From Atriophallophorus winterbourni (taxonomy: Eukaryota; Platyhelminthes; Trematoda; Plagiorchiida; Microphallidae): DNA of 64,000 bases. Below, in pieces: positions 2,149 to 62,410 of this stretch (positions within the stretch are counted from its first letter, which is position 1; each line of letters starts with the position of its first letter). The stretch lies in assembly GCA_013407085.1 (NCBI GenBank), contig JACCGJ010000253.1, positions 1 through 64,000 on the forward strand. Reading direction: 5' to 3'. A program made the translations under genes and the position numbers. The notes beneath the pieces are model-generated. The model was not told the origin of the DNA, did no database searches, and saw only the letters and a list, made by a program, of their open reading frames with translations.

Positions 2149-5100
2149 GTAATTTCTTTTTCATTAATCGTCTCAGACTAAATATATCCATGAATGCTTA
2201 GAAGAAATCAAATACGAACTCAGAATAAACTCTGCGTCATCCAAATCGAATGCAGTGTTAAAGTTAATTTACGTAAGCCTTCATTGCATACAATGTCTGC
2301 AGCTCCAAATGCTTGGATTTGAGTTCAGTTGGGCCTCCTTCAATGTTGTTGAAATAATGAGCTCTCCTAAATTTGCTTTCAAAGTACGTAATGTTTTCAT
2401 TTTTCGCTAATTCATTTTAGCGAATTGGCTATCTAGCTGCCTCTCAAGGTTTTCATCAAGGTTCAGAAGTCCTTATGCTCACAACGAATCTGATTCGAAA
2501 GGTAATATATGTTATACTTAAACCTTCCAAGGATATATGCAGCTCCAAAATTTACGATGCAGGGAATGCGCTTTCCGGACTCGCATGTTTCATCACTCCC
2601 GAGTTAGCTGCAAATTTATACGTTGACGTTATAAAAATGGTAATAATTTGCGTTGTTTACTTTCGCACGACACTCGCCATGCATCGCTTCTATATAGCTT
2701 ATATATTTGAGTTACTATATTTCAATTATTCTCGTATTTGGTCGAAGGCAGAAGGTTGCTCCGTGTGAGCTGCATTACTTTTAGTCATTTCGAAATCCAC
2801 CGATTTAAATAAAAATTGTTTTCTTTTAAAAGTGGATCGTTTTCTTAATTGAGCTGCACGAATTTGCCATATGAATATTTAAACTGCACTTCCATGGTTC
2901 TGGCATTCTTGTTGAGCTTGAAATTTTTCTACGGCTCTTTGTAACTTGATGACGATGCAGGCATTATTCCTCACTCGCGAGATCATCTGCAGCCGTAATG
3001 GGTTATTTTTAGTTGGATGCAAAGATTTGGACATACAATCAGTATGAACTAGACCCAAATCCTTTGTCAAGTGACTGTATCGCCTATCATTACTGTTGAG
3101 AACTGTCAGCTTACAACACTACATAATTTCACATATTTTGGTTCAACGATTGCGAATAACTTTCACTAGACACCGATATTGATTGGGGGTTTGGCAAAGC
3201 AGCTACCGATTTAACTTTTCGGTCTGGGTAAACCGCGAATTAACCGTTAAGAAATGATGTTGGCATACAGTGAATGCGAACTAAACGGTTTGCTGTACGG
3301 CAGTGAAACGTACCCTCCACGCAATACTTGATCAAATGCTAAATGCTTTCCATTGATGAAGCATCTGCCGTATCTTTAGCATATTGTGGTGTGAACAAAG
3401 TAATGAATGCTTTAGTGCTTTCTAAAGCAAGTCTACAGCACATTTTCACCATACTACAACAGCGCCGCCTACGCTGTCTGGGTCATGTGTACGGGGTGGA
3501 AAATGGTCATATTCCAAATGATCTACTCTATGGTGAGTTGAAATCAGAAAGTCTAGCAGATTACCCGAGCGTTACGTGAATAAGAATTGTTTTAAGTGTT
3601 GGATTATGAGGTGTGTGAAATTATGTATAAATATATGTATATATATGTATATTTACGTACAATAGGAGGACACTCAGAATCGACAACAGACTTACGTAAT
3701 CCTTGTGTGGTCCACTTGGATTATCGCCAACAATATATTTGACCCTTGTTGTTTCTTCGCCGGGATAATTGCTCGTCGTAGATGATCAAAGCAGTGAATA
3801 ACCGGAAAGAGAAGAAATGTGCTGGGTCAGTAATCTGCAAACACGTAACACTCGGCTAATCCGCTACATACTGATGAGCCCGACGTCGCTTGTCACCGCT
3901 GTCCGTGGATGCAGGGGATTTCCATCATGTTCAAGTCCTTGCGCATCGGCTGCTTACCTGGAGTCGACGAAAAGGGAGACGAGGGAAACGAAATAATGGG
4001 CACTGGCTGTGAAGGGATAGCTACAGTCGTATGGGATCCTCGGTCTGTGTTCGATTCCATGAACGCGCGCTTCAATCGGTCGATGTTGACTGAATCCGGA
4101 AGGGCGTTCCGTTCGATGACCAAGTACTTGGCACTGCGGGAGATGACTTTGTAAGGGCCGTCGTATGGTGCTTCGAGGGGCCGTTTAACACGGTCTACCC
4201 GCGTGAATACGTAAGAGCACGCCATAAGGTAATTGTAGACGTGACTGGTACGGGAAGTTACACGGGTACGCGGAGCACGTATTTCTCGCATGAAGGCTTG
4301 GAGCCTGGAGACACACGGAGCCGTTTCAATCTCAATCAGGGGTGTGGAGTAGGTCAGTAGTTCGGCGGGGAGTCGCAGAATTGTTCCGTAAACCATATCG
4401 GCTGATGTGTAACCGATGTCCTCTCTTGCGGTATTGCGGATGCTGAGCAGAACCAGTGGAAGTTAGTCTACCCAGGACGCGCTGGATTCGGTGGCGATGA
4501 GCGCAGCCTTCAATTGACGATGGAATCATTCAACGAGACCGTTCGCGGCTGGATGGTAAGCCGTCGTCCGAAAATGTTCGCATTCAAGGAGACGATTTAG
4601 TTCTGGGAAAAGGTGGGGCGTAAACTGAGCTCCGCGGTCTGTGGTGATCTGGGACGGGACACCGTAATTCACAATCCAACTAGAGACGAAGGTGCGAGCT
4701 ACGGTTTCCGCAGATGTATCCATTAGTGGACACGCTTGTGGCCAGCGTGTGAATCTATCGATGCACGTCAAAAGATGAGTGCACCCATGGGATGAGGGTA
4801 AAGGTCCAACCAGATCGATATGTACATGCCGAAAACGTCCATCTGGAAGGGGGGATAGAGCGGGTATGTACATATTGATCTTGTTGGACCGTTACCCTCA
4901 TCCCATGGGTGTACTCATCTATTGACGTGCATCGGTATCAACCCAACCTGGGCCTTGTGGGTCAGGCTTCTTAGCCAAAGATTTTGGTCCACAACCCCAA
5001 TTGTTCTTTCGGCATGGTCGACCTGGCAGTATCCCAGCTCGTATACAACCACGACTATAACTACAAAACCCAACTCCATAGTGCATCCGCCGGCGCGCAT

Positions 5101-8100
5101 GATAAACAGGGTCGCCTTACCTGCTGCCTACAGCAGAGCGGGTAAGCGAGAATAATCTGGTGCTGGTTCTATTCTTGTAACTCTTTCTGACCGTCCTCTT
5201 CCACTCTTAACGAATCTTCTGTCAGCCCCAGCCGTAGAAAAGACCTCGCTGAACATGTTGGAACACCCTCTAATCGTGTACTCACGGATGACTTCCTGAA
5301 ACCAGGGATCTCTGCTCACATTGGAGCTATGAATGTCAGAACCCTCAGACAGATAGGCCAGCAATCTGCAATGCCTCTTACCTCAGATATTCTAACTATT
5401 AATGTCTTCTGTTTATCAGCAAGCGCGTTAATATGATCCGTTTATACTTAAATACTGCGGCAAACCTTTCGATTAACTACTTTTTGCGCTGCTCCTGTGA
5501 TTATGTAGCTGCTATTTCAGAACAGACGGGTGTTGGTATAGTGCTGAATTCACGTGCCGAATCCTGTCGAATCGATTGGATTCCTTGGAAAAGCAGGATG
5601 TGCACAGTTGGAATAGCCACAAATATTAGCCCAAACTCAAAATCTTCTAATTAAAGATGTTTGTTTATTGTAGCAACTTACGCCCTTACTAACACGAATT
5701 TCGTCGACGAGAAGAAAGCCTTCTATGACAATCCATACGCTCTTTTGCGATGTGTGAAAGCTCCGATATTGTTGTCTTCGCGGGAGACGTGAATGCCAGA
5801 CTTGGTCGCTTAGATATATCTAAATCACAATTAGGTGGTATGTTTGGTCTTGAAAGCCAACGCACAGCCAACGGTGAACGATTTATACAATTCTGTACAC
5901 AGTCTCGATTATTCATTAGCAGTACTTCCTTTCGCCATAAAAGATGTTAATGTACAACATTGCGCCGGCTGGATGGAAGCCAACCTTCGGTCCATATCGC
6001 CATGAGTGCTCGCTGGAGAGAGAGAGAGGAGTGCCACTCCTTTAGAATACCTGCATAGATTCAGATCATGCTCTGGTGCGATGTAGGTTCTCGTTAAAGT
6101 TCTCCGGTACGAAGCCTTCGAATGGGAAATGTATTGCGGTCAAAACATTCTCTCAGCCTGCAGTTCAAGAAATTTATAGGACCACCTCAAGTAACTCGCT
6201 CCTAGTTGCTCTGGGTGCAAATTTCGATGAAAGATGGAACACAAAGAAGAATCGCGCCTCTCACACTAGGCAGAACATTTTGAAGAACAATTTTGCTTGT
6301 CACCTGCGAGTGATTCATTGCATCATTTGAAACACTATTATCCTTTGTGTGTTAGCGTAGATCCCTCTAGTGATTTAGAAATTAAAGCACGTATCGATTC
6401 CATGAAACGATTCGAGGTTGCTGGCCCCAATGTTTAAAGAAAGTGGCCAAGTCCTAATCAATACATTAATCTATCTCCGTGAAGTGTGGTTGTCAAAATT
6501 TGTCCCTCAGATTTGGGGAGAATCGGTTAGCATACCAATATTTGAAAAATGTGTACGATCTCCTGCTCTAATAATCGTGGGATAAGTCTCACTCCTATTA
6601 TTACGAGATCTTTAGCGTCCATCTGTCTTCGATGATTAGCATGGCATAGGGAATCACAGAACCGAGAGCAGCAAGCTGGCTTCCGACCTGTCAAAGGCTG
6701 TGCTAATCACACTCTTACTCTTCGACAGATCTTAGAACTGCGGCACTTATCGACAGCCGAAAATAACCATCTCTTTAGACTTCAAAGGAGCATTTGATTC
6801 AGTCGATCGAAGTGTCCCGTTTAACACCTGGCGTTTCGTAAAAGTATGCGAAACATACTGCACTTACATAATGCGTGCACTTTATACTCGTACATACGGA
6901 TGCGTTAGGGTTTACAACGACCTTCCACGCACGTATAACAAGAGTGTCCAATTACTCTTTTGCTGTTCAATTTTGTGATTGATGCCATCATGGAATTATG
7001 CAGCGAAGGAGCCCCAGCATTCGGAGTTCACGTAATGCTCGGTTGCAAGTTTCTCGACTGGGATTATGCTGATATAATTCTGCTGTTCAACTAGTTCGCA
7101 GATGCAAATGCGATACTGAACAAGCTAGCTAGTATCTTCCCGCATTTGGAGTGCGTTTTGCATGATCTACGTGTAGTGTTCTGCTGCAGGACATTGACTT
7201 AACAAACAGCATCTTATTACTTGGCAATCATACGCTTGAAATTGCAGATTGTTTTATGTATCTCGGTGGATGTGTCAATAATTCGGCATCGTTAGATGAC
7301 GAGGTCACGGCACGCTTTTCTAAAATGACCGTATCATTCCGCAACCTAAGTCGCCCCTGACTTCCAAATAAACTGTCTCTGTTACGTAAGGTTAAAGTCT
7401 ACAAAGCGACAATTCGGGCTGTATTGGTGCGAAACGTGGACATTACTTTAACAGCACATTCAGGATCTCCAAGTATTTGACAACCGGTCGTAGCAGCATT
7501 TTAACAGTTAGCTATTACAATCGCATACGCAACGATGCACTGCACTTTGGTAGTAATGTTGATATAGAGAAGCAGATCAACCTGTATAGGTTCTGCTGGT
7601 AAGGTCATGTTTTACGGATGCCGGACTACCGACTTCCGAAACGGATTCTTTTTGGGACGCCACATCCCGATTGGTGTAAATCTCGTGGTGGCCAAACCGT
7701 CATGTGGCATTTATTCATTCATTCAGTCCTCTCCGTGCCGGGTGGCACATGAGGCGGAGACAACTTCACGCCAGTGGTTCCGGTCTGTCGCTGCTTCCTT
7801 TGCCGTCTGCACCGTGAATCCTTGTGCATGTAGTTCACGTTCCAACGTTCTGCGCCAAGTTTCCTTGGGCCGTCCCCTTTTTCGTTTACCTTGCTGATGC
7901 CAGTGCATGGCTACCTTCGTGTGCGAACTGGGATTCATCCTGCAGACATGACAGAACCACGGATCTGTTGTCATCGTTTCCGTAGCAATGTAGGTTTTAC
8001 GGGATAGGGTTGCTAGCCCTAAGCCCAATCCTCCTCCTTTCTTAGACGGGCTTGGGACCGTCCTTGGCATAGGCAGCTAAAAACCCTTACTAGTAATATT

Positions 8101-11100
8101 CCAAAGTTGGCGCAGCATGTCTGCCAGGCTGGGGTCCCCTTGATCAGATATCACTATAGTCACGCTTCAGGATGTACAGAAACCGTGTTCAATGGTGGCC
8201 TTGTACTAAGCACATTAGATCTTTTGCTTAGCCGTGTATGTTGTCAAGTGGAGTGACGAGGAAAGCTTGTTGTGATGGATGGAAGTGAAAGCAGCAAGGA
8301 AGCTGTCGTGTTAATGTAGCTCTACTCATTTACGAAACTTGTTTGAATGCTTGTTCCATTCAAGGTGTAGGCACCTCATCCCAGTTTGTTTTTTCTTACT
8401 CTTCTATAGAATCCATAGCTATTTAAGTCCAACTCTTTCCCATCTTTTAGGATTTTACTTTTTCATGGTTAAGCACGCGGTACATGCTACAGATGTAATG
8501 CGGTATCCGATAATGATGAGCATGAGAAACATGAGACCATCCTGCGCTTGTAATGCACATCCATGGTCGACATTGAACAGAGCAGGACAACAACATCATT
8601 GTAATACGGCGTCGCTCTTGTTCCAGCGTACTGCATTCTGCCGTTGTTTTTGGCTAGACTGCTGGATGTCTGTGTCTTAGATTTGGTTCATATGTGTGCG
8701 TCGTATAGTACCTTGAATGATTCTGCTATTATAATAGAAAACGTTATACGAATTGCTTTCAAAAACGGTTTGCGTTCCCGAGCTTTTCCGCTGCGTTCCA
8801 TTAATGAGACAGTGATAAATAGAATGACAGCAGTATCGCTTCCTTATGTGCCGGAATTTTAAGTCATACCTTTTTCAATTTTTTAAATCTAATCATGGTT
8901 CCAATGCAGTTAACGAAATTTTCTCGATTGGGATCTAGTCCATTGTGAGCCTCATTGCTGACTAAAGAGATGCTCAGGTATCAGTATTTATGTTTAGCGA
9001 ATATTGCCAGTTCCCAAGCGCATGCAGATCCTGATCCTACTGTCCCTACCTGATGAGTGCAAACAGCACGAAACCGGTCGTGGGGTGTGTGTGATGGAGA
9101 TGCATGCAACTGAGCTTTTGTATTCATTGTCAGTTCCCGTTTTACAATTAGGCTTAGTCGTGATTTAAAGTTTTATATTTCCGTATATTTGCAACAGCGA
9201 TACCCGCCTTCATACATACAAACCAAAATGGGAGAAATAAGAGGGCAAATAAATTTTGACTGTTGAAATATCCGGCTAATCGATTATCACCTGAGCGAAA
9301 AAATCAAGGTTTCTATTTGACATGTCAATGCAACACACGGCTCATTGAGGCCATTCTAAGAGTTGACGACGATAAGAATTATTGAATCGTTGAAATGTAA
9401 CCGATTCTTCTTGAACCTTTACCTAGAGTTATTTCAAATATTCAAGAGCGACAGGGTTGTCTTATAATTTCTAATAGTGTAAAAGTGTTTAGTTATTAAC
9501 TTAGTGAAAGTTTTTCGGTCCTAGTCACATGCGCACTCAAGACATCATCGATATTGTCGGTGATCTGATGTGCTCCTCAAAAAATACTTTCATTATAATT
9601 CGCCGTTCTACTTAACTTATCTGTAAATAATTAAACAGAAAGATTGTTTGGATTCTCAAGCATTTTCACATTTTGGTTACAAGTTGCTTTTTTGATTTCA
9701 CGCTTGTGCTGAGACATCTATTTAATGACTTGTTGACACGGTTCTTGCTTGATTGTTCAACAAAAGTTACTGATAGAATTTGTGCAGACATACAGTTAAA
9801 TGTTATACAGTTATTCAGTTCTTTTTCCTAACGTAATTTTGAGGTCGCACGATGCTGCGATATATTACCAGTTGAGATCAAAATGGCTCTTCAGTAATTT
9901 TCAATTAGCTCACAAATCAGATTTATATTATACTAGACCTAGGCAACCCGACAGTATCTTATCCCATGTGCAATGTCTAATTGTGCGGCAATTTGGTTCG
10001 TACATAACGCACCGAATGGTGCTGAGGACGCCGCTTTGTACCCAAATTCCAAAGATTCTTCATTGAAGCCGACTCATCCTCCAGGAGATGATAGTCGCAC
10101 AAAAGTAAAGTAACATAACGCACCGCAGGACAATGTTTCACAACGGGTTCTTTTGCAATCGATTGTGGATTATGATTTTCCTTCACGTGATTTCACCACC
10201 ATCATTTGTGCTGGAACGTACCTAAACGAAAATCATATAGTATCCATTAATTATGGTCTTCTTGCATATATTCTGTTCTGATAGACTTCTTCCAACAATC
10301 CATACCTTCGCAAGAAGGCCATTTTGCTTCTGTACAAAATTTTCATCAATCACCCGGAATCTCTCCCGGAATACTTTACTCGTTTGAAAGAGAAATTAGA
10401 AGATCCGGATCCTGGTAAGTGTCGTTGCCCATAGCGTTCCACATATTCGCTTGTGCCTTTCCATACTACGCTTTACATGTAACGTATAATTTCGATTGAT
10501 GGACAATTTCTTATAAAATTTGAACAACTTGATCAGGTGTGAATGTGTTAAAAAATTGCTGTAATCCGGTATAAAATGGTGTGATCCCGATGTAATGAAA
10601 AAAGTCTAAGCTCTGTACCATTGCGCGAATGTGCCATCGTGCAGAACGTATGTACTGATACCGTGCTAAATTGATTGGCCACTGGTAGTAAGCTGCATGT
10701 TGAAACACGCTGGAGTCTCACTACCATTTCTAACTGTCTAGTTCTGGGTAGCCTGAAAGTATCTTTGCCCGCGTGAAGCTTGACTGTGCGGCACTTTGCC
10801 TGGATCAGGTTTGTGCTTTCATTTCATTTAATGATGTAGTTTAAGGGAATCATACAATTGCTTATCGTGTGTAAATCAAAGCCTTGACGAAATATCCATT
10901 TTGGTTGGAGGATCTCTATCTGACTATGGCATGTGTGATGTCAATAATTTATACTTCAGACAGGATTTTGCACGCAAATTGAATTGTTTGATTAATTGCA
11001 ACTGCCATAGATTGAAGTAGTATGAAAAGATAATTGTGGTGCGTTTACTTGAAATCTAGAAGTTCAGTATCGCTTTTATCCTTCACACCAAATTATACGC

Positions 11101-14100
11101 TAAGAACGTGATTGGATAGCCATACGCAATTTTCTCATTTATCAGTTTGTGTAACGCGAAAATCGCTGGATTCGTGGAGCCAGGACCTAACGTTTTGAGA
11201 ACTTGGTTGATTGATTGATCAACCCAAAATGTGACTCTTTACTCACCTGTTATTTTCTTGATTTGCCAAGTTTTCATTTAAATACGATCTCATGATGATT
11301 TCATATAATTCGCACATCGTCTGTTGCCTTCCGCGTAATTGATGATCATTAACATTCGTAGGCTGACGTACTTGCGATTCTTTGTTTTTCAGGTGTCCAA
11401 TCAGCCGCCGTGAACGTTATCTGTGAATTGGCACGGAAAAATCCAAAAAATTATCTCTCCTTGGCTCCTATCTTTTTCAAACTAATGACAACCTCATCGA
11501 ACAATTGGGTCCTCATCAAGATCATCAAACTGGTCTGTTTCATGCGCATTAACTTTGCCACTCCACCATGTTTGTTATCACTTGATTTTTTAACGACACG
11601 TTTTATACAATTTCTGAACGTTTTCCGGAATGATATGATTTTACCCCATTAATCTGAAGTATCTAATCATCATGTTCATCATGAAGCACAAGTCTGGAAC
11701 CAGACAAAGTGCCAAGTAACATGAAATAGGCGTGAGAAATAGAAACCGGGCAAGCGAAGCAAATATGCAAAAAGTAGCCTGTTTTTTTTCTAGTTTCGCG
11801 GCATGCGATTTTGTGATTTTCCCCACCAAATGTAATAGAATAATAACGGATAAAAACATGATAACATACACTAGCGACACTGAGTTCGGTTTGCAGCCAT
11901 ATTTCGTAAAGTTTCGAGCCAACTATTAGGTGGATATTTTGGACCCCATCCAGTTAAACGAATACTCCCTTCTGAGCCTAGCGCTACACGGAGTTTCTTC
12001 CTCCCAACGCGCCTTGTCATGGACTAGCCTCTTGATAGTTTCTACTAGCCTCTGCGAATAAAGCGTGGTATGGTATGGTATGGTGGTGATGCATTCATAA
12101 AACATGTCCGAACCATAGCAAACGAGAAAGCATCAGCATTTGTATCAGTCCGTGGCATCTTGGTTCTAAAACACGCTTGCAGATAAGTATATTTGTAGCG
12201 CGATACTGCTATCAAATGCGATCAATCCTACGAAAGCCGATAGACAGCTTCCGCTCGGATAGACTAGGTTTGGCAGCCATAAAGTAGTGTAGCACGCACC
12301 ACTGCGTTGTACACTCGACCTTTGGTATGGAGTGAAGCATCGCGTTTACACCACAAATCGCGAAGCTTAGCAAACGCTACATCCGCTTTGCGTACATGTT
12401 GTGAGATCTCGTACTCGACACCAGCACCAGAAAAGATACAACTGCCGAACGCAGCTTGTCGGATGACTAAATAGTCCGATTCATAAGTGAAAATCTCTCC
12501 CACCGCGCTCACAGTGACAGACAGTACTTAGTCGATCGGCGTTAGTTGAATGCCGGCAGTGTGCTCTACGTTCAGCAGCCAAGAGCTTTATCTGCTCTTC
12601 TCCAGCTTGGAAAGTTAACAATCTTTAGTAAGTTTTTTCCAACTCTTAGTATCAATGTCGAGAGCTTTCATATTTCTTTTTGCCGCAAGTGCGGTCTGCC
12701 CAATGGTCAACTTCATGATTTAAACTCACCATAGAGTAGATCTTTTGGACAGGACCTTTTTCAAATCTGTAGACGTGACCCAGCCACCATACGTGGCGCT
12801 GTCGTAGTAGGGTGAACATGCTCTGTAGACAAGTTTTAGAACACTTCAGAATTCATTACTTTGTCAACCCGCGATATGTTCAGTATACGGCCACACCTGC
12901 ACTTACTAAATTCCTTGTTTCACCTTCAGTTTGGAACGCTGACTTCCATTGAACCTCGGCTTGGAAAGAAATTGATCGAGCCCTTAACTAACTTGATCCA
13001 CAGGTAAGTGTTCACTGTCATATTGATACTGCTGCTGATAATGTTTTTTTCGCATTGTCGAATAACTGGTCGATTTTGTTTCTCATTAGATATTCCTTCT
13101 AGTCAGCTGGCCTCACATACGTCGCGTATTTTTCATTACAACTGACTGCGACCCCGAAAATAGCGTGTATTCCAGTGGGGCGATGTGTTCACACCTGTAC
13201 TACTTAAGTGCTAATTGTGTGCCACAAATGCCGGGCTTTGCAGTTCGGGATATCATTGCGTGTACCACATATGGTGCTTGTCACACTCGAAGTGGTAATA
13301 GATCATATAGGTTGCTATGTTGTAAAATATCGAGAGCTCGGCTTTAGCCAACCCTTTTTAATATTACTTGAAAATCACGAGAACGGTGCGAAACAAAAAG
13401 TAGCTTAAAGGAGATTGAACTCACCATCGTCATCATCAGAGACAACACCGGTAGCATGTACCGCGTGGTTAACTGCCACAACCATGAAAGTAAAATCCTT
13501 AAAGATGGGGAACGGTGGGACTTAAATAGCTACAGATTTTATAGAGGAGTAAGCACAAACAAACTGGGATGTGGTGCCTACACCTGGAATGGAACAAGCA
13601 TTCAAACAAGTTTCGTAAACGAGTAGAGCTACATTATCACGACAGCTTCCTTGCTGCTTTCACTGGCATCCATCATAACAAGCATTCCTCGTCACTCCAC
13701 TTGACAACATACACGGCTAAGCAAAAGATCTAAGAAGATGCTTAGTGCAAAACCACCATTGAACACGGTTTCCGTACATCCTGAAGCGTGACTATAGTGA
13801 TATCTGATCAAGGGGACCCCAGCCTTGCAGACATGCTGCGCCGACTTTGGAATATTGCTAGTAAGGTTTTTAGCTCCTATGCCACATGACGGTTTGGCCA
13901 CCACAAGATTTACACCAATCGGGATGTGGCGTCCCAAAAAGAATCTGTTTCGGAAGTCGGTAGTCCGGCATCCGTAAAACATGACCTTACCAGCAGAACC
14001 TATACAGGTTGATCTGCTTCTCTATATCAACATTACTACCAAACAACTTATTTCGGAGAGCATCGTTGCGTATGCGATTGTAATAGCTAACTGCTAAAAT

Positions 14101-17100
14101 GCTGCTACGACCGGTTGTCAAATACTTGGAGATGCTGAATGTGCTGTTTACGTAATGTCCACGTTTCGCACCTATACAGTAATACAGCCCGAATCGTCGC
14201 TTTGTAGACTCTACCCTTAAGTAACAGAGACAGTCCGTTTTAAAGTCAGGGGCGACTTAGTTTGCGGAATGATACGGTCGTTTTAGAAATGCGTGCCAAG
14301 ACCTCGTCATCTAACGATTCCTCACTATACCAACACCCGCCTGTTCTGAAACGGCAACTACAAAATCACCGGAGCAGCACAAAAAGTAGCGAGTCGAATG
14401 GTTTGGGGCAGTAATTTCAGTAATTATAGACGGATCATATAAGCGCGTTTCCGATAAACACCAAACATCAATAGTTAGACTATCTAAGGTAATGAAGCAA
14501 TGCAGCTTGTTTGCCCATCTGTCTGAGAGTTCTGGCATTCATAGCTCCGATGTGAGCAGAGGTCCGTGGTTTCAGAAAGTTATCTGTAGATTCTGTTTTT
14601 TCTTAGTCTTGGTTTGGCGACGAAGAGTTGTTAAGAGTGGAGGAGAAGGGTCAGTAGTATCAGTAGCTTGTTTTCGCTTATCCACCCTGCTGTATGCAGC
14701 AGGTATGGCGACCCTTTTTATCGTGCGCGACGGCCGATGCACTATGGAGTTGGGTTTTGTAGTTATAGTCATGGTTGGCAAGACCAACCTGCACACCCAC
14801 ACGTGGATGCTGTTTAAATCCATGAGATTGAACAAAAATCATTTTTTGCTTGGATTTCCATCACACAAACACCCCACGACGGGTTTCTTTCCGTATGTAC
14901 TCAACTAGGGATAGTACGATCATGTTCTGCATGCCTTTAGAAATGATTAACCAGGTTTGAATAAGGTTGGCACGACCAACTGTTCAATGACGTGCCCACA
15001 CGCATGCAGCTACCTCGAATGTTTTTGAACAATCACGCGCTTCAACCTGTAGATTGTTTTACGTATCTCGGCATTGCGTCAATAATTCTGCATCGTTTGA
15101 TGACGAGGTCTCAGCACGATTTTCTAAGGCGACCGTAGCATTCCGAAAACTAGGTCACCTCTGGCGTCAGAAAGTTCTGTCTCTGTTACTCAAAGGTAGA
15201 GTCTGCAAAGCCACAGTTCGAGCTGTATTACTTGGTGCGAAACTCGGACTTTACGCAAATAGCGTATTTGGCATCTCCAATTATTTCAAAACGAGTATCT
15301 CTGCACCGTTTTGGGAGTTAACTATTGCAGTCTTATAAGCAAAGCTTCACTCCGTTAATGTTGGTGTATTGAAGCAGATCAACTTGCACAGATTAGGTCA
15401 TGTTTATTTGGTTGCCGGACCACCGACTACCGAAACAGATTCTTTTTGTGACGCCGCATCTCGTTTATCAGCAATCTCGTAGTAGCTAGACTGTCACAAT
15501 GCATAGGTAGCTAAAAACACTAACGACTGACCTCTATGAACTCGGTGCTGTCCGTCTTCCTGGTTGGGGTCCTCGTATAAACATATCGCAATGGCCAGTC
15601 ACTCTTGATCATATATCTCAAAGCCGTTTTCAGTGCCGCTCTTACAGTAAGCAACACCTTTGAATGTTTGCTTAATCTTGCATGCTGTCAAGTGGAGTGG
15701 TTAGAAAAGCTTGTTATGATGCATGCCAATGAGTGCCTCAAGGAATTTCTACTCGTTCACGAAATTTGATTGAATGCATGTTCCATTCGCGGTGTAAGCA
15801 CCTCATCCCAATTTGTTTGCGCTTACTTTTCACTCGTGGATATCCGTTTGTGCAGCACATCTTGGTGTGCACCCTGCTAAACTGATTCGCCTCAAAAGCG
15901 AAAATCCACTCGAGTCTCACTGCCATTACTATTTTCATTTCTATCTGTCTACGCCTGGGCAAACTGACATCACTTTAGCCCACACCCGGATTTTGACTTG
16001 TTATTTCATACATACATATATGCATGCATACATTTCTCTATCTTTTGGGATTTTATTTGGTTATGATTGTATGACACTTGAGTGTTCGGCACTGCTTCCG
16101 TTGTAATGCTGTCCCTGATGATTGCGATGATATTGATGGTAGACCTCGGAGTGGCCGAACAGCCCATTGCATAGACAACTAGTAACTTTTTTTAAACGGC
16201 ACAGCTCCTCTTCTGGGCTGGGGTCCATACGATCTGATATCGCGCTTGCATGATCGATCTTAAAACCTTTGCTGATTTGTCTTGGTGATTTTGTGCGTTT
16301 GACTGAAATCTACGGGGAAACTTTTTCACTGATATCGTTGCTACCTGATTACCGTTTACACGTTTCGGATTCAAATACGCGTCAACCCTGTTTGTAAAAA
16401 AATGATTGTATTGTTTACGTGAATTTTCACCGATCAGATTACTTCAATCTTACGAAAATGTTAGATAATTTCTGATACTCCAACCCTCTCATTGTCGTTT
16501 GTAAGCAGAATTCCGCCGTGGTTGTTTGATATTGAAACATCAACACGTTGCATCCATCTAATGCTGCATTTGATGGTGATGATGATGCCGATTTTTTTTC
16601 TAGAAGAGATCTGATTCAGCTCTCTGTTCGCATATCTTAGCACACAACGTCTGCTCTCGTTGTCGATTCCATTGCAGGTAAAATCGAGGATAATCACAAA
16701 TGTGTTCTACCATCCTTACTCGTATTTTATTTTGTTTACCATCTCTAATGTGATCTTCAACGCTGTTGCTTACTTTCTGTTTTGCTCGACAGCACCTCAG
16801 CCATGTCGCTTTTGTACGAGTGTGTGAATACTGTCGTTTCGGGTGAGCTGATAATTCTTCGATTTTGATTGCTCTTGTTTTCGTGTTTTCTCTCTTGCGA
16901 TATTGTTTACTCATCGGTTAAATGAGAGAAACGAACCGTCGAAGTCGGAATAGTAATCACCTTACTTTTACTGCACGGATGTGCAATCGTGCGGTACGTT
17001 GTGTTGTGTGGCTAACACCGTGCTAAATTGATTGACCACAGTTAGTGAGCTGCATGCTGAAACAAGCTGGAGTTTCACTACCATTTCCTGTTCTTTTTTC

Positions 17101-20100: not shown

Positions 20101-23100
20101 ATATGTATCCGGTGCCTTATATTACACAGGCAATCACAGATTCGCGAACAACAACCAAGGATTCGTCTCGGTAGCTGCGTTAGGATGTACAGTAGCGGTT
20201 TGTTTGCCATCTATAATTAAGATTGGCGTCATTGCAAGTATCGCCAGACTCTGACTTGGCTCATACAGATGAAGGCTTCGTCTCTTAAATTAGCTGCAGT
20301 TGGTGCGACCGGTCTCCTAGCTTGGGGTCCAATGAGATCCGAATTCGCAATGGCCTTTTGCCTTTAGTCACATGGCCCAAAATCGTGTTCATTGGTGGTC
20401 TTGTTGTAGACATCTTCTTGGAGAGTTTGAGTAATCTTGTATGCTGTCAAGTGGAGTCACGGGAAAGCTTGCTGTGGTGCGAGACAGTAAAAGCTGCAAT
20501 GAAGATGTCATTCTACTGTCGCTCTACACTTTCACAACACTCGCATGAATGTATGTTTGATTCGTGGTGTATGCAACTCATCCAAGTTTGTCTACCCAAT
20601 CTTTGATCAGTTCAGACAGACATTTCTCTACTCTAAGTCTAGGCCTGGGCAACCTGACAGCAATATCGCCCACGTGCAGTCTCTAACTGTGCGGCACTTT
20701 GCCTGGATCAGGCTTGTGCTTTAATTCATTCATTCATTCACTCTAAGTCATACTCCTCCGAAACACGTGGTTCGAAGCCTAAAGTAAAATTTAATTTAAT
20801 TATATACTATATCCTATGGTATTGTAAAGCGATATGCTTTTTACCAAACATATTGGATTCTGTATCTTACAATCAGGATTATAATGTGGCGAAAATCAAG
20901 GTATTTACAGGAAATGCACTTGTTTGTCTTCTCAGTAAAATATCTCGGCTTACTCGCGATGACCAAGATCATGCGGCATCATCCAAAGAGTGTGGAGTCT
21001 CACAAAGATCTGATTTTGTGCTGCCTGGACGATAAGGATGAGTCGATCAGACTGCGCGCTCTTAACTTGCTCCAGGGTATGGTCACCAAGCAGAACTTGA
21101 GCGAAATTGTCAAAATCCTTGTGCAACACGTCAGTAGCCCGTCAGCAAGCTCACACTTCCGTAATCAATTGGTCGGCAAGATTATTCAATTATGCTCGGA
21201 GATGAATTATGAGCTCGTGACCTCGTTCGAATGGTAAGTGATAACGCTCCTGTTTTTTTCTTTCTAGCTTTATCTGATTTGTTGTAAGGAATTTGAAATT
21301 TTGATTTATTATTCGCCAATCATCGTCAACCCTCTGTTTGTGAAGCTGCTCGATGTCAATTTTAACATTACGAAACTATTCGTTTTAATAATCAGCGATC
21401 GATTCATTCGTTACAGCGGATTCGTTGGGTTTTTTCACTAATCCCACTCGTCTGTTTCCGCCGCTCTCGTTTTTCTGATCATCACCCAAAATAACAACTG
21501 GCAATTATTTTATTAGATTCCAGGAAATCCGAAGATCATGAACCTTATTTTTCACTGTTGGGCAAGGTGAGTACGACCAACCTGTTCAATCACATGAGCC
21601 CACACTCCGGTAGACTGAATTTGAACCCATGACCATGAACAAAAAAGCTCATTTGCATACATTTCCATCACATCAACCGCACGACCGGTTTCGTGCTGTT
21701 TGCTCACATCTGGTAAGGATAGTAGGATGCATGTGCTTGAAACAGTGGAAGAATGATAAACAAGTTGTGCTTGTATGTCACTATTGGATAAGGTTGGTAT
21801 TTTATGATACAGCTGTGAAGAGAATGTTAAGCCACTGATTTGCTTGCTCAATTATAGACTATGAATGTTCATCGAGACAATAAACAATATTTGTATTTTA
21901 ATCCGCTGTTAAATTGGGTTCGTTGAACAAACCACGATGTTCAACTACATATTCAGTCAAGCGTTATACTTCTAGCTCTCACACTCCATGTGTTACATAC
22001 CTTTCTCCATATATATAACATTTTTAACAGGTACATCAGCGTGCTTGTCGAATTGTCCTGCATCGATACGGTTTCCAATGGCAACGCATTATCCTCGCAA
22101 TTGATAGAAGTGGCAATCCGCGTGCCCTCTGTTCGTTTGTTTTGTGTCAATCAAATGTCAATTCTGTTTGATTTGTGTTGCTCGGATGAAAACCTGGTTT
22201 CCCGTCCAAGCGCACTCTTGGACGCCATTCGCGCTGCCAGTTGGATTTGTGGAGAATACGGCACGTACGTATAGTTTTCCATGATGTCATACTGATCAAT
22301 ATTTCTTATCCTTTTTGTCAACCCCGTTGCTGTCATTGTGTGTGTGTTTACATACTGTGACCTTGTCAGTCAATCGGTTGCGACGAAATGTCTCTTATTT
22401 CTTTTGCATGAAGGCAGGCGCGGATACGGGATATTAACGCGGTGCGATGATTTGTGTACCCCTGTGACCCATTGAGCTATACTAGGTTGTGTCCTTTAAG
22501 CACAAGCAGGGTTACTCATAACCGGAAGGTCGGTTGATAGATGTCAAACAAAGTCGGTCTCAGCCCACTGCCTTGTGAGTAAGGCTCTTTAGTCAAAAGC
22601 TTTGGTCGAGAACCCTAATTGTTCTCCTGTCTAGACTATGGCGACCTGGCAGTATCCCAGCCTACATACAATCATGACAGGCACAAATAACTCCAATTCC
22701 ATAGTGCATTGGCTGTCGCACGATAAGCTACTGCTGGCCCTACTCTTCGATCTTTTTCTGTCCCCTCTCCTTCCCCGTTTTTTTATTTCTCATCCTTCAG
22801 CTTTCTGTGTAGGTATAGTTTTGAGTTCGCATGCAGAAAGTTCACTTTTAGACTGGATTCCCTTCAATAGCAGGACTAGCTACTTCTATCAACACTACTT
22901 CCCGAACTCAAAATAAGCGGTTCTTCTTTGTAGTTGCCACCTATGCTCTGATGACGGCAAAGATATATTCTACGACGAACTTTGTTCTCTCTCATCACAC
23001 GTAAAGAGTTCTGCTATCATTATTCTTGCTCAACTTGGTCGCCTAGTTACTAAGTCAGAACTCGTTTGTTCGTTCAGTGTCGATGCGCAGCCGACAGATA

Positions 23101-40435: not shown

Positions 40436-40570
40436 CTCTATCCGCCGACCTTCCTGGTATGAGTAACTCTGTGCCCAAAGGAGACACGCCAGTATAGATC
40501 GATAGGACACGGAGGTACACACACTTCAAGGTCCGGTCTCCGAGCGGAAACTGGTAAAGCGAATGTCTGA
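40436..40570 (-). repeat. RTE 5' leader fragment
   Basis: TCTGACCTCTATCCGCCGAC to CTCCGAGCGGAAC resembles 50010-50150, upstream of the RTE-B endonuclease. Confidence 0.45.
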
Positions 40571-41271
40571 ACATCACCGGTTGGCTAAGCAAAGGCTGTT
40601 CTAGGAAGGTGAATAGCTCGATTCTAGCTCACTTGATTGATACGAGGCACCAAGTAAAGCCTGGAAAAGCGTTTTCAGTCGCTTACACGGTTCACCACGT
40701 GTCTCGAAGAGTCGGTTGGAATATCTTGCGTACAGATGAGGCGATTGCAATAAAAATATTTCGACAATTTATGCGTCACAAAACGATTAGTTCGTGATCT
40801 TTCATTATCTTAGCCAACATCCATATCGGCCAGACAATTTTAAGTAACAACACGTTACACTGATTTTTGTTTATTGGTTGATTTTGATAGATTTATTTCT
40901 ATTTTCTTAAGGATGTATTGTAAACCTTGATAAGAAATGCTGACAAGGAATTCCTTTGCTTTCATCAAATGTTTCGCTGGCAAGTATGTGAGTGGTTTTG
41001 CCGATCCTGTCGCCAAGCAACGCTTCGAACCATTAACCACTAATGAGATCGGTTTCTTAGTTTAAATTCGAGTTTTTTCTTAAGGACAAATGTAGAGCTC
41101 ACTTCGATTGAATTCTTGAGATGAGACATTGATCATAACCAAAACCCAGGTAGGTTGCTGATTTCTGGCGTTTCGAAGAGCATCACTCGAAGCCAGAATG
41201 TTGATCCGTCTAACTGCTTTAAGGGCATCATCTGTTCTTACAGCCGTAAACAGATAGTCAAACTGAATGAC

Positions 41272-43573: not shown

Positions 43574-43990
43574 CGTCAGAGCCAATCTCTTTCAATGGAA
43601 TAATGAAGGTTACTAATGGAACATTCGATCAAAAAACATAAACACGATTGAAGGCCGATCAAGCTACTATTTAAACGAACACAGATAAATGGGATACAAA
43701 ACATCCCCAAATAGTAATAATAGCGAAAGTAACAGAGATAGGAACGGCACAACTTACAATCATTTTTTCGAAAAAACAACTGATTGAAATAGCTTAAATA
43801 TCACGTGAAATAACAACTTAATCTAAAATGGATATTTGTCCCACGTTCCAAAACATTGTATCATAACACTGTAAGGTTTAAAACAAATCCTATTCAACCA
43901 GTTATATTCTGTGCGACAAAGCGAAACGCAACACTGATACATCCGAGTAGCAGGCGACAACAAGCAATGGGGGGACGAAAAAACCAATCA

Positions 43991-44990
43991 NNNNNNNNNN
44001 NNNNNNNNNNNNNNNNNNNNNNNNNNNNNNNNNNNNNNNNNNNNNNNNNNNNNNNNNNNNNNNNNNNNNNNNNNNNNNNNNNNNNNNNNNNNNNNNNNNN
44101 NNNNNNNNNNNNNNNNNNNNNNNNNNNNNNNNNNNNNNNNNNNNNNNNNNNNNNNNNNNNNNNNNNNNNNNNNNNNNNNNNNNNNNNNNNNNNNNNNNNN
44201 NNNNNNNNNNNNNNNNNNNNNNNNNNNNNNNNNNNNNNNNNNNNNNNNNNNNNNNNNNNNNNNNNNNNNNNNNNNNNNNNNNNNNNNNNNNNNNNNNNNN
44301 NNNNNNNNNNNNNNNNNNNNNNNNNNNNNNNNNNNNNNNNNNNNNNNNNNNNNNNNNNNNNNNNNNNNNNNNNNNNNNNNNNNNNNNNNNNNNNNNNNNN
44401 NNNNNNNNNNNNNNNNNNNNNNNNNNNNNNNNNNNNNNNNNNNNNNNNNNNNNNNNNNNNNNNNNNNNNNNNNNNNNNNNNNNNNNNNNNNNNNNNNNNN
44501 NNNNNNNNNNNNNNNNNNNNNNNNNNNNNNNNNNNNNNNNNNNNNNNNNNNNNNNNNNNNNNNNNNNNNNNNNNNNNNNNNNNNNNNNNNNNNNNNNNNN
44601 NNNNNNNNNNNNNNNNNNNNNNNNNNNNNNNNNNNNNNNNNNNNNNNNNNNNNNNNNNNNNNNNNNNNNNNNNNNNNNNNNNNNNNNNNNNNNNNNNNNN
44701 NNNNNNNNNNNNNNNNNNNNNNNNNNNNNNNNNNNNNNNNNNNNNNNNNNNNNNNNNNNNNNNNNNNNNNNNNNNNNNNNNNNNNNNNNNNNNNNNNNNN
44801 NNNNNNNNNNNNNNNNNNNNNNNNNNNNNNNNNNNNNNNNNNNNNNNNNNNNNNNNNNNNNNNNNNNNNNNNNNNNNNNNNNNNNNNNNNNNNNNNNNNN
44901 NNNNNNNNNNNNNNNNNNNNNNNNNNNNNNNNNNNNNNNNNNNNNNNNNNNNNNNNNNNNNNNNNNNNNNNNNNNNNNNNNNNNNNNNNN
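43991..44990. other. Assembly gap, 1,000 N
   Basis: Exactly 1,000 undetermined bases, the conventional size for an unsized gap. Reading frames across it are meaningless. Confidence 1.
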
Positions 44991-45560
44991 GCTCACTACC
45001 GTTGGCCAATCAATTTAGCACGACGTTAGCCGTACGGCACAGAAGTGCTGCACGACTGCACATCAGGTGCAGGTGTATGTATGTATGTATGGTGTGGTAT
45101 GGTATGAAAGCACAAGTCTTATCCGGGCAAAGTGCCGCATAGTCAGAGACTGCACGTGGGCTGGGATACTGTCAGGTTGCCTAGGCCTAGACAGATGAGG
45201 TAGAAAAAAGAACAGGAAACGGTAGTGAGACTCCAGCCTGTTTCAGCATACAGCTCACTACCTCTGGCCAATCAATTTAGCGCGGTGCAGCACGAGGTAC
45301 TGCACGATTGCACATCCGTGTATGTATTTATGAATGTATGTACGTGCGAAATCACAAGCCTGATACAGGTAAATTGTCGCACAGTCACAGACTGCATGTG
45401 GGCTAGGATGCTGTCAAGTTGTGGGGTCTAAACGTGTGAAAAATAGGAATGGCAGCGAGACCATATTGTTTCCGCATGCAGCTCACGACCAATTTCACAA
45501 AAATTTAGCAAGGTGTTAACTGCATAACGCAAAACGTACATCCGTTCAAAGGCATGTATT
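44991..45560 (-). repeat. R1 tandem cluster, three head-to-tail copies
   Basis: A partial copy (44991-45070) directly after the gap, a full copy (about 45090-45322) and a diverged copy (about 45325-45550), all on the - strand, joined by TATG-rich tails. Confidence 0.85.
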
Positions 45561-60649: not shown

Positions 60650-62410
60650 AAATAATGAAAAGGTTCCATTCGCCTGTTATGTCTGTGTTCGTTGCAAAGC
60701 TAAACCCTAGCACGGTGCAGAAAATTTTGAAGCCAAATTAGAAAATAGAATGGTCAGTTTCACGTTGAGCCTTCGACGTGTTGAAGAAATATTGGTAAAT
60801 CATGTGAGTACGCAAGCATCACTGATGTAAGCCATCAATACAACGATTTCGGAGCCATTATTGAAGGAATTTGCGACTAAAGCTATCGGTGTGACAAAAA
60901 GAAAAAGCTGGGTTAATCAAGTTTTGGAATCAGTTAAAACGACCACGGAAGAGGAAATTCTTACAGAGATTTGCTGTTAAGGTCAAACTCAACTTTGTAC
61001 TCCAAAACTGCTGTACCAGACTCACAAAGTCAAGGCACAAATCTTTTAAATTCGAAAAATCTGACTTTCCGATACCCAAAAATTACTCACCGTACGCGCT
61101 GAGCGTGATATGTACGAACGTCACCGAGTCCCAAGAAAGCATGTTTGATTGCAAACAGAACAGGGAAACGAACATTACCCAATGATGTTAGACTAAGCCC
61201 ACCCAAACCCAATGTCATAAGTCAGACACTTCCCCGTCTGGAAACAGCCGATAGCAGCGTTTCCGTTCAAATAGAAGACATCAATACATCAAAAAACGTC
61301 GTAGGTCAGGCTCAAATCGAGTCGGACTAAGTAATTCACACTGAAAACTAATTGTCGATTCAAGCGGTCGTCGACCAATAAGCAGCTCATATGTTTTATC
61401 ATCTCAGCCACTGACTACTCAGAGGAATCCGACATCACACTGCTTAACGCCTTATCACATATCACATAATTCATCAGTAATTGTTAAGCCCGACTCCAGA
61501 GAAGGCGGACCAATACTTTCAGTTTACACGCCTTCGTTACTCATGAAAAATTCAATTAATTGCATCTATAAAAAAGCGAACAGCCTTTTCAAAAAATTAA
61601 TAGAATGGTCCGATATTTGTAATGGGACTTCCCCAGACATAGTTGCAATAACAGAAACGTTTATCTGTAGAGCTATGAACGACCAGACCCTTGATATAAC
61701 TAACACACTTTGGTGCCCACTGACTCTTGTTTCAGGAGAACAATGCATTATTGGAGTGATCTATCGTTCTCCAACAGCAACGCTATGTAACAACCCGGTA
61801 CAATACTCAAATATTAATAATTAAGAATGTCAACTTTCCCCAGCTTTATAGCTGGGTTGACCATTCATCAGAGACACTTGAATATGTACTTCGAGCCGTC
61901 TTGGATTACACACCTCTTTATAACGACGTTTTTATATTTATTCGTTTGAGGGGATCAGACCAGCCGTCTACTATCTACCTAATACTTACATCAGATCCCA
62001 CAACTATAGAGAATATCAAAATATTCATTTGCATGCTTTTCCGTCATTCACACCCCACGACTAGAGAATATCGTTTATAAACCGCCAATCAATCACGTTG
62101 TCCTAGAATTCGAGTACGTTTGTAGCGCTAGGCGCAACAGAGACGGAACGAAATGCGTCAGAAAAGTGAACTACCGTGCTCTGTGTGCTACTACGAAACA
62201 GGACTAAAATATGGATGAAACAAAGGACAGTAGCATGGTAGTTTCGCAAGGCTACCAACAAAATTTACACGACTGTGAAAAAAGTTATCAGCTTAATTCT
62301 GGATGATAAACAAGCTTTGCAATCGCAATTGATTTCTCAGATGCACCAGAATCCGAAGCTCTTATATAGACTTCAAAGTGATTCAAAGTGATTCAAAGTT
62401 GTAATGGTCT
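60650..62410 (+). mobile_element. CR1-like LINE, ORF1 and endonuclease remnants
   Basis: Interrupted frames give an ORF1-like CYVCVRCKAK, then LENRMVSFTLSLRRVEEIL (60740-60795). The endonuclease SPDIVAITETFICRAMND (61630-61690) and EQCIIGVIYRSPTA (61738-61780) follow, then an EN-RT linker (HQNPKLLYRLQS near 62345). The RT is missing. It meets the 3' end of the opposite CR1 near 62410-62480. Confidence 0.7.
62007..62072 (-). repeat. R3 short fragment (62018-62061) with 11-bp duplication
   Basis: The - strand insert starts GTCGTGGGGTGTG and ends GCATGCAAATGAATATTTT. It is flanked by perfect TAGAGAATATC repeats (62007-62017, 62062-62072). Confidence 0.75.

Follow-up and report, generated by a model that had tools for sequence, protein, structure and literature searches.

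Background

In metazoans, non-LTR retrozymes with type I hammerhead ribozymes have been described as tandem units of 150-450 bp with target duplications longer than 4 bp (PMC7229834). In the published model the retrozyme RNA is cut by its hammerheads and then closed, probably through a tRNA ligase, before a borrowed reverse transcriptase copies it (PMC7229834, PMC7761336), and Penelope-like elements were proposed as the partner on the grounds of shared type I hammerheads, tandem copies and co-occurrence (PMC7229834). The axolotl hammerhead HHR_Amex1, whose helix III consists of one pair and a palindromic tetraloop, showed 6% cleavage per hour as a monomer and much more as a dimer (PMC7229834).

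In rotifers, Penelope elements show pseudo-LTRs in inverted orientation, duplications of 8-10 bp and, optionally, a 31-bp tail; self-priming rather than two-sided priming was the explanation given for the inverted copies (PMC3846280). The Penelope-like enzyme of Anolis initiates internally in vitro, past the hammerhead, with a tail between two start sites, and extends both target strands (PMC11167929).

In flukes, approximately 38,500 hammerhead matches were reported for Schistosoma mansoni (PMC2770079), and MEG and VAL genes show an enrichment of hammerhead SINEs (PMC4350168). For S. mansoni, a putative intronic hammerhead is reported in every SmPoMuc gene, with the essential G12 in group 2 only (PMC2576457).

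Here we analyze a hammerhead in intron 5 of AP3D1 in the fluke Atriophallophorus winterbourni, within a 64,000-nt stretch of genomic DNA (the window). The motif is very probably the ribozyme of a non-autonomous metazoan retrozyme, inserted in the intron as a 110-bp, 5'-incomplete copy. The insert belongs to a repeat family and has a target-site duplication, and its sister copies have a preferred 3' end and occur both in tandem and head to head. These sister copies record how retrozymes enter the genome, since their ends tell where synthesis started on the RNA, whether the ribozyme cut was used and what kind of endonuclease opened the target.

Results and Discussion

The letters at 9044-9085 (+), read directly, are CCCTAC-CTGATGA-GTGC-AAACA-GCAC-GAA-ACCGGT-C-GTGGGG (Table 1). 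The invariant core CUGANGA...GAAA and an NUH cleavage triplet are in register, and three helices with an open-ended stem I are present, helix III being weak as a monomer. The reading confirmed the complete hammerhead of the initial annotation in its core, 6-bp stem I, 4-bp stem II and GTC triplet. It also agreed with the self-complementary stem III noted there, which is an A-U pair with the palindrome CCGG, and this weak helix supports the suggestion that the ribozyme acts as a dimer.

Table 1. Coordinates of the AP3D1 hammerhead, its carrier and related pieces in the window
Feature	Positions	Strand	Remarks
Type I hammerhead ribozyme motif	9044-9085	+	RF00163, 32.9 bits; pair probabilities; core common to the family
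Stem I	9044-9049/9080-9085	+	6/6 pairs
Stem II	9057-9060/9066-9069	+	4/4 pairs; loop II AAACA, 9061-9065
Helix III	A9073-U9078	+	one A-U pair enclosing palindromic CCGG
Predicted cut, GUC triplet	between 9079 and 9080	+	
Retrozyme insertion	9016-9125	+	110 bp, approximately unit positions 1-106 of the 233-nt unit; similarity to multicopy tandem units
Left target-site duplication ATTGCCAGTTCCC	9003-9015	+	12/13 identical to 9126-9138
Right target-site duplication ATTGTCAGTTCCC	9126-9138	+	GTTTT comes next, which gives an AC^ motif on the opposite strand
Family-B copy, diverged	14814-14934	-	73% identity over 124 nt; later AP3D1 intron
Family-B copy, slightly over one unit	21544-21799	-	76% identity over 265 nt; later AP3D1 intron
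44-bp family-B insertion	62018-62061	-	unit approximately 62-105; 100% identity over a 45-nt match
AP3D1 intron 5	2640-10284	+	7645 nt, GTAATA...GATAG; exon homology, frames, splice sites

The Rfam model Hammerhead_1 (RF00163) aligned end to end with the motif, with an E-value of 7.8e-6 over 2 kb and 2.5e-4 over 64 kb. The score, 32.9 bits, fell 1.1 bits below the curated 34, an operational detection limit and not a structural feature; at the gathering threshold the model gave 0 matches over the whole window. For the pattern CTGATGA-N{4,30}-CGAAAC the expectation is 0.09 occurrences in a shuffled window, whereas the looser CTGANGA-N-GAAA pattern is at chance level (6 observed against 5.2 expected in the window). 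In a 71-nt fold, the pairs of stem I had probabilities of 0.91-0.98 and those of stem II were close to 1.0. The minimum free energy structure additionally pairs CUG of the core (9050-9052) with CGG of helix III (9075-9077), a non-catalytic pairing that would compete with the active form. The hammerhead motif at 9044-9085 is real.

The motif lies in sense in intron 5 of AP3D1, about 1.2 kb upstream of the acceptor, a location given in the initial annotation and borne out here by exon homology and by the GT...AG borders, which were read from frames and splice sites (exon 5 ends at 2639 and exon 6 starts at 10285). The AP3D1 exons were located with a human query sequence; two of them were confirmed against AP-3 delta PDB chains (20932-21237, E 3e-38; 11392-11532, E 2e-23), and the exons flanking intron 5 rest on homology to the human query and frame reading. 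By frame reading, the first four introns (2053-2639) are only about 28-37 nt long, against 7.6 kb for intron 5, which appears rich in pieces of transposable elements.

A 13-nt direct repeat with one mismatch flanks positions 9016-9125; of 4000 random placements in the window, 7 had a repeat of equal quality within 10 nt. Similarity to the repeat family described below (family B) ends near 9015 and 9130, and the direct repeat at these borders defines the insertion. Three further pieces of the family are present in the window. The diverged copy sits between AP3D1 exon pieces 12930-13001 and 16773-16841. The copy of slightly over one unit, between exon pieces 20932-21252 and 22023-22271, has a broken hammerhead core in which invariant positions are missing. 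The 44-bp insertion is enclosed by a perfect 11-nt duplication (62007-62017 and 62062-62072 in + coordinates, with one border base ambiguous); it starts 3 nt before the ribozyme cut and ends at the usual 3' end of the family. Only the insertion at 9016-9125 combines the sense of AP3D1 with an intact core. The element is common, and the intron 5 hammerhead marks one of several places in which it has landed. If the four pieces in the window are typical, hammerhead copies in this genome would number, as a rough figure, tens of thousands.

Other features of the window were noted. A Twister-P1-like match at 8083-8028 (-) scored 27.8 bits, against a gathering score of 67.2; its 12-nt core, GTCCCAAGCCCG, is exact. 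The match may belong to the 3' part of an RTE-type repeat. Schistosoma has abundant twister ribozymes, and this one may be a twister that was carried by a repeat and has decayed. A long near-perfect palindrome at 4759-4934 matched the plant model MIR807, with 78 bits on one strand and 76 on the other, both below the cut-off of 113; it looks like a MITE-type hairpin and overlaps an ORF at 4526-4891 (-) taken for a piece of a retroelement. A run of about 1000 N at 43988-44992 is either a gap in the assembly or a withheld stretch.

A profile search with RF00163 of the A. winterbourni genome contigs (537 Mb, 15,840 contigs) at E<=10 gave at least 70 matches, at least 27 of them above the cut-off; the window copy is not among the 70, and these counts are lower bounds since 74 of 96,317 candidates were scored. 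Among 14 control genomes, 11 had some match at E<=10 and none had one above the cut-off. Thirty loci sorted into two families, 28 by core pattern and two (L026 and L027) by similarity to family A. Family A, the second family, has the core CACTG-CTGATGAG...GCGAAAC-TCGA-GTC-CAGTG and, in L015, a 422-nt unit. Some of its sequences were read as pol III A and B boxes, and ARAGORN called no tRNA in the four loci of this family that were submitted to it. The window insertion belongs to the other family, family B, a multicopy retrozyme family with a unit of about 233 nt that forms tandems in L028, L021, L054, L061 and others; L028 holds four cores spaced 233-235 nt apart. The type I hammerhead is thus found in short repeated units within the 150-450 nt of metazoan retrozymes, the window copy being one partial unit.

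Seventy-eight family-B cores differ from that of the window by 13 substitutions or fewer; the 75 with up to 11 were retained and the three with 12-13 dropped. Nine of the 75, the window core and eight others, are identical over all 42 nt, and 62 are distinct. The invariant core is retained in 53, and in 16 it is accompanied by at least 5/6 stem I and 4/4 stem II pairs, fractions inflated by the choice of copies by ribozyme score. Covariation across these cores is weak. Stem II pairing was better than in 1000 of 1000 shuffles; stem I showed no covariation beyond shuffles, 561 of 1000 reaching the observed pairing. Folded as a circle, the 233-nt unit gave -65.8 against -53.6 (sd 4.1) for 50 mononucleotide shuffles, with 61% of it paired, a predicted structure compatible with, and no proof of, the self-paired circles described for retrozymes. 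Contig C10575 holds three occurrences of one retrozyme locus (L041, L042, L043), spaced by about 11.5 kb, and the locus recurs on the other strand of contig C9581 (L040); identical copies are also common to L037/L038, L050/L052 and L066/L067. These repeated loci are segmental or assembly duplications.

The ends of the copies were analyzed in 75 family-B rows, after removal of edge rows and exact duplicates, with the unit numbered from AAGCGC (u1) and the ribozyme cut between u64 and u65; the sample is small and was picked by ribozyme score. The 3' end fell at u91-120 in 36 rows, all of them within u95-118, the near-duplicates L040/L041 and L050/L051 each counting twice among the 36. Eighteen of the 75 end at u101-110, and the commonest end is 42 nt past the ribozyme cut. 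Compared with an even spread of the 68 ends at u71-233, the u101-110 bin has a binomial probability of 1e-7, uncorrected for the choice of bin. The remaining 39 rows end elsewhere, eight of them in a marginal cluster at u211-220 (P 0.06), and the 5' ends are scattered. The data do not support the ribozyme cut as the usual end of the inserts: of the 36 rows that end at u91-120, 34 extend through it, which suggests a template that was uncut or circular at this point. The 44-bp copy in the window is a single case and does not show run-off from a cleaved end. Family A gave a similar picture, 23 of 31 copies ending at u101-129, about 80 nt past its own cut, and 4 of 32 non-edge ends lying at u141-150, about 32 nt further on; its 5' ends are also scattered.

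Target duplications were associated with the preferred ends. A duplication score of at least 10 was reached by 6 of the 36 family-B rows ending at u91-120 and by none of the 39 other rows, against 0.6% of 510 and 1.8% of 555 control placements, respectively; for a score of at least 8 the figures were 8/36 (controls, 3.1% of 510) and 1/39 (controls, 5.9% of 555). In family A, duplications of at least 10 were found in 2 of the 23 copies ending at u101-129 and in 0 of 345 controls, and those of at least 9 in 3 of the 23, against 0.3% of the 345 controls and none of the 8 other copies. Some copies of the two families have duplications of 8-16 nt; those of the seven best family-B copies are 9-13 nt long and most copies show none, including L029, a short copy with the same borders as the window insert, which has no clear one. 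Where present, they are longer than 4 bp, as in metazoan retrozymes. Among 17 inserts chosen by duplication score, AC stands directly before the left duplication in 9 and at either end in 12, a motif noticed post hoc. A search for empty sites of these 17 gave one possible diverged site, for L044 (68% identity, window 40543-40767); the two other spanning matches were self-matches.

Adjacent copies in opposed orientation (gap <=40 nt) were head to head in 18 rows, or 15 distinct pairs after mirror duplicates were removed by eye, and tail to tail in one. Seven of the pairs belong to family A (L001, L002, L005, L007, L009, L012 and L014, some with target duplications) and eight to family B. Duplications with a score of at least 8 enclose 6 of the 15 whole pairs, a count made without a matched pair control: L001 (10/10), L005 (12/12), L050 (12/12), L035 (8/8), L007 (11/12) and L040 (11/12). 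The insert ends of the two families suggest a preferred start past the cut, more than one round of synthesis and maybe two-sided priming. Ends, duplications and twins together fit target-primed reverse transcription, as in Penelope-like elements.

Target-primed synthesis could also have been supplied by a LINE, for example of RTE type, with the head-to-head copies arising by L1-like twin priming. Twin priming predicts scattered outer ends for the inverted arm. The outer ends of the pairs are instead clustered: both lie at u105-148 in 7/7 family A pairs, while 7/8 family B pairs have one arm ending at u95-112 and 5/8 have the other ending at u194-221. Nor was a poly-A or simple-repeat tail seen at the retrozyme 3' ends. 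On the other hand, reverse-transcriptase ORFs are present in the window, "RTE-type" being a reading of these ORFs, and duplications of 8-16 nt are LINE-like as well; the 15-bp duplications of Nematostella repeats were likened to those of LINEs (PMC4918200). One window reverse-transcriptase ORF has 106 related proteins, and those named by organism are from flukes (Dicrocoelium, Opisthorchis, Schistosoma, Trichobilharzia and Heterobilharzia) apart from two coral proteins and three that bear the label Acinetobacter baumannii; among named relatives the best score belongs to one from Dicrocoelium, 54% identical over 89%. We regard movement by a LINE as unlikely, if still the most serious of the alternatives.

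A Penelope-like partner is, in our judgement, the likeliest mover of these retrozymes, and moderately probable; the agreement is good, though of an indirect kind. In both families the inverted copies, internal preferred ends and short duplications resemble the insertion signature of Penelope-like elements, features alone being compared. With 110 bp, the insert has no room for the reverse transcriptase and GIY-YIG endonuclease that a Penelope-like element encodes, and a narrow motif scan for GIY-YIG over the window and the 70 loci found nothing. Under this reading the hammerhead would act on the retrozyme RNA, cutting multimers to units that are then joined to circles, and would do so mostly as a dimer, because its helix III has a single A-U pair closed by the palindromic loop CCGG. 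Host DNA would be nicked at about AC^ by a reverse transcriptase that brings an endonuclease of its own and is most likely supplied by a Penelope-like element. Copying would start inside an uncut or circular RNA, preferentially at the site 42 nt past the ribozyme cut, and run for part of a unit, one round or several, with priming sometimes from both target strands. In its most specific form, which we offer as a tentative possibility, the Penelope-like enzyme nicks AC^ on both strands, and each end of the break primes cDNA at one or two fixed internal sites of a circular hammerhead RNA. If true, this two-sided priming would give rolling-circle tandems, head-to-head twins and 44-bp minimal inserts alike, and the genome would record the missing step from RNA circle to retrozyme repeat.

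The short inserts might instead be remnants of longer tandem arrays, left by recombination or deletion in the manner of solo LTRs. The window insert and the short copies L029, L044 and L045 do share borders near u1 and u106. The 44-bp copy, however, has a perfect 11-nt duplication and yet a different 5' border, and the family shows an overall scatter of 5' ends, which is what reverse transcription that stops short of the 5' end should give; the remnant origin is improbable for the 110-bp and 44-bp copies.

The hammerhead is in the AP3D1 intron because a common small mobile element, the retrozyme, copied itself there. That its placement in a conserved host gene is special is not supported, the motif riding on a 110-bp mobile-element insertion with a target-site duplication, one among dozens of sampled copies, and the view of the initial annotation that such a placement was not known to be described falls as well, since putative hammerheads in introns of fluke host genes are already published (PMC2576457, PMC4350168). 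The AP3D1 hammerhead is an ordinary passenger, ordinary in kind. It is probably neutral, being spliced out with the intron and cleaving slowly at most. Slow cutting of the pre-mRNA is expected from a single copy with a weak helix III, by analogy with the axolotl monomer of similar helix III (6% in one hour, PMC7229834). No tandem array was seen around the window hammerhead, and the nearest other family-B piece is about 5.7 kb away on the opposite strand, leaving no neighbouring ribozyme for intramolecular action as a dimer.

Recruitment by AP3D1, as an intronic ribozyme under selection that regulates pre-mRNA processing, would agree with the sense orientation and with a core equal to the family consensus while the flanking parts differ, and conserved intronic hammerheads are known in amniotes (cited in PMC7761336). 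The identity of the core, however, is simply that of the family consensus, the motif came in with a mobile element whose target duplication can still be recognised, and the two other family pieces in AP3D1 introns are diverged and on the opposite strand. Such recruitment is very improbable, and the passenger reading is retained. A chance likeness to a hammerhead, for which only the score of the window motif below the Rfam gathering value would speak, is refuted by the family, as copies L019, L020, L021, L023 and L025 exceed the cut-off (34.6-37.2 bits), repeats that bear ribozymes in this way are of a known kind, and membership of a repeat family, together with the target-site duplication of the insert, does away with that explanation.

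Conclusions

The insert ends, duplications and twins provide a direct, countable test of the proposal that Penelope-like elements are the partners of retrozymes. The preferred 3' end and the head-to-head twins are its less expected part. Titles and opening lines of abstracts among the literature matches listed, supplements and subscription papers aside, held neither feature for metazoan retrozymes, and the words "inverted" and "head-to-head" do not occur in the main text of PMC7229834.

Compared with the metazoan retrozymes of PMC7229834, whose named hosts include platyhelminths, the type I hammerhead, tandem units and duplications are alike, whereas the window copy is a single 110-bp partial unit. 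The window hammerhead shares its kind of weak helix III with axolotl HHR_Amex1 (PMC7229834). The schistosome hammerhead SINEs Sm-alpha and Sj-alpha, as described in PMC2770079, PMC2576457 and PMC4350168, are likewise from flukes, number thousands of copies and occur in introns of host genes; A and B boxes are common to the schistosome elements (PMC2576457) and, by our reading, family A, whereas family B has a 233-nt unit of other sequence. Penelope-like elements with hammerheads in their pseudo-LTRs show partial tandems, inverted copies and short duplications as found here (PMC3846280), but the window insert codes for nothing. The Anolis Penelope-like enzyme has a reported cleavage preference for ATT, in contrast to AC^ here, and its start past the hammerhead cut and extension of both strands resemble the steps that we infer for the retrozyme (PMC11167929).
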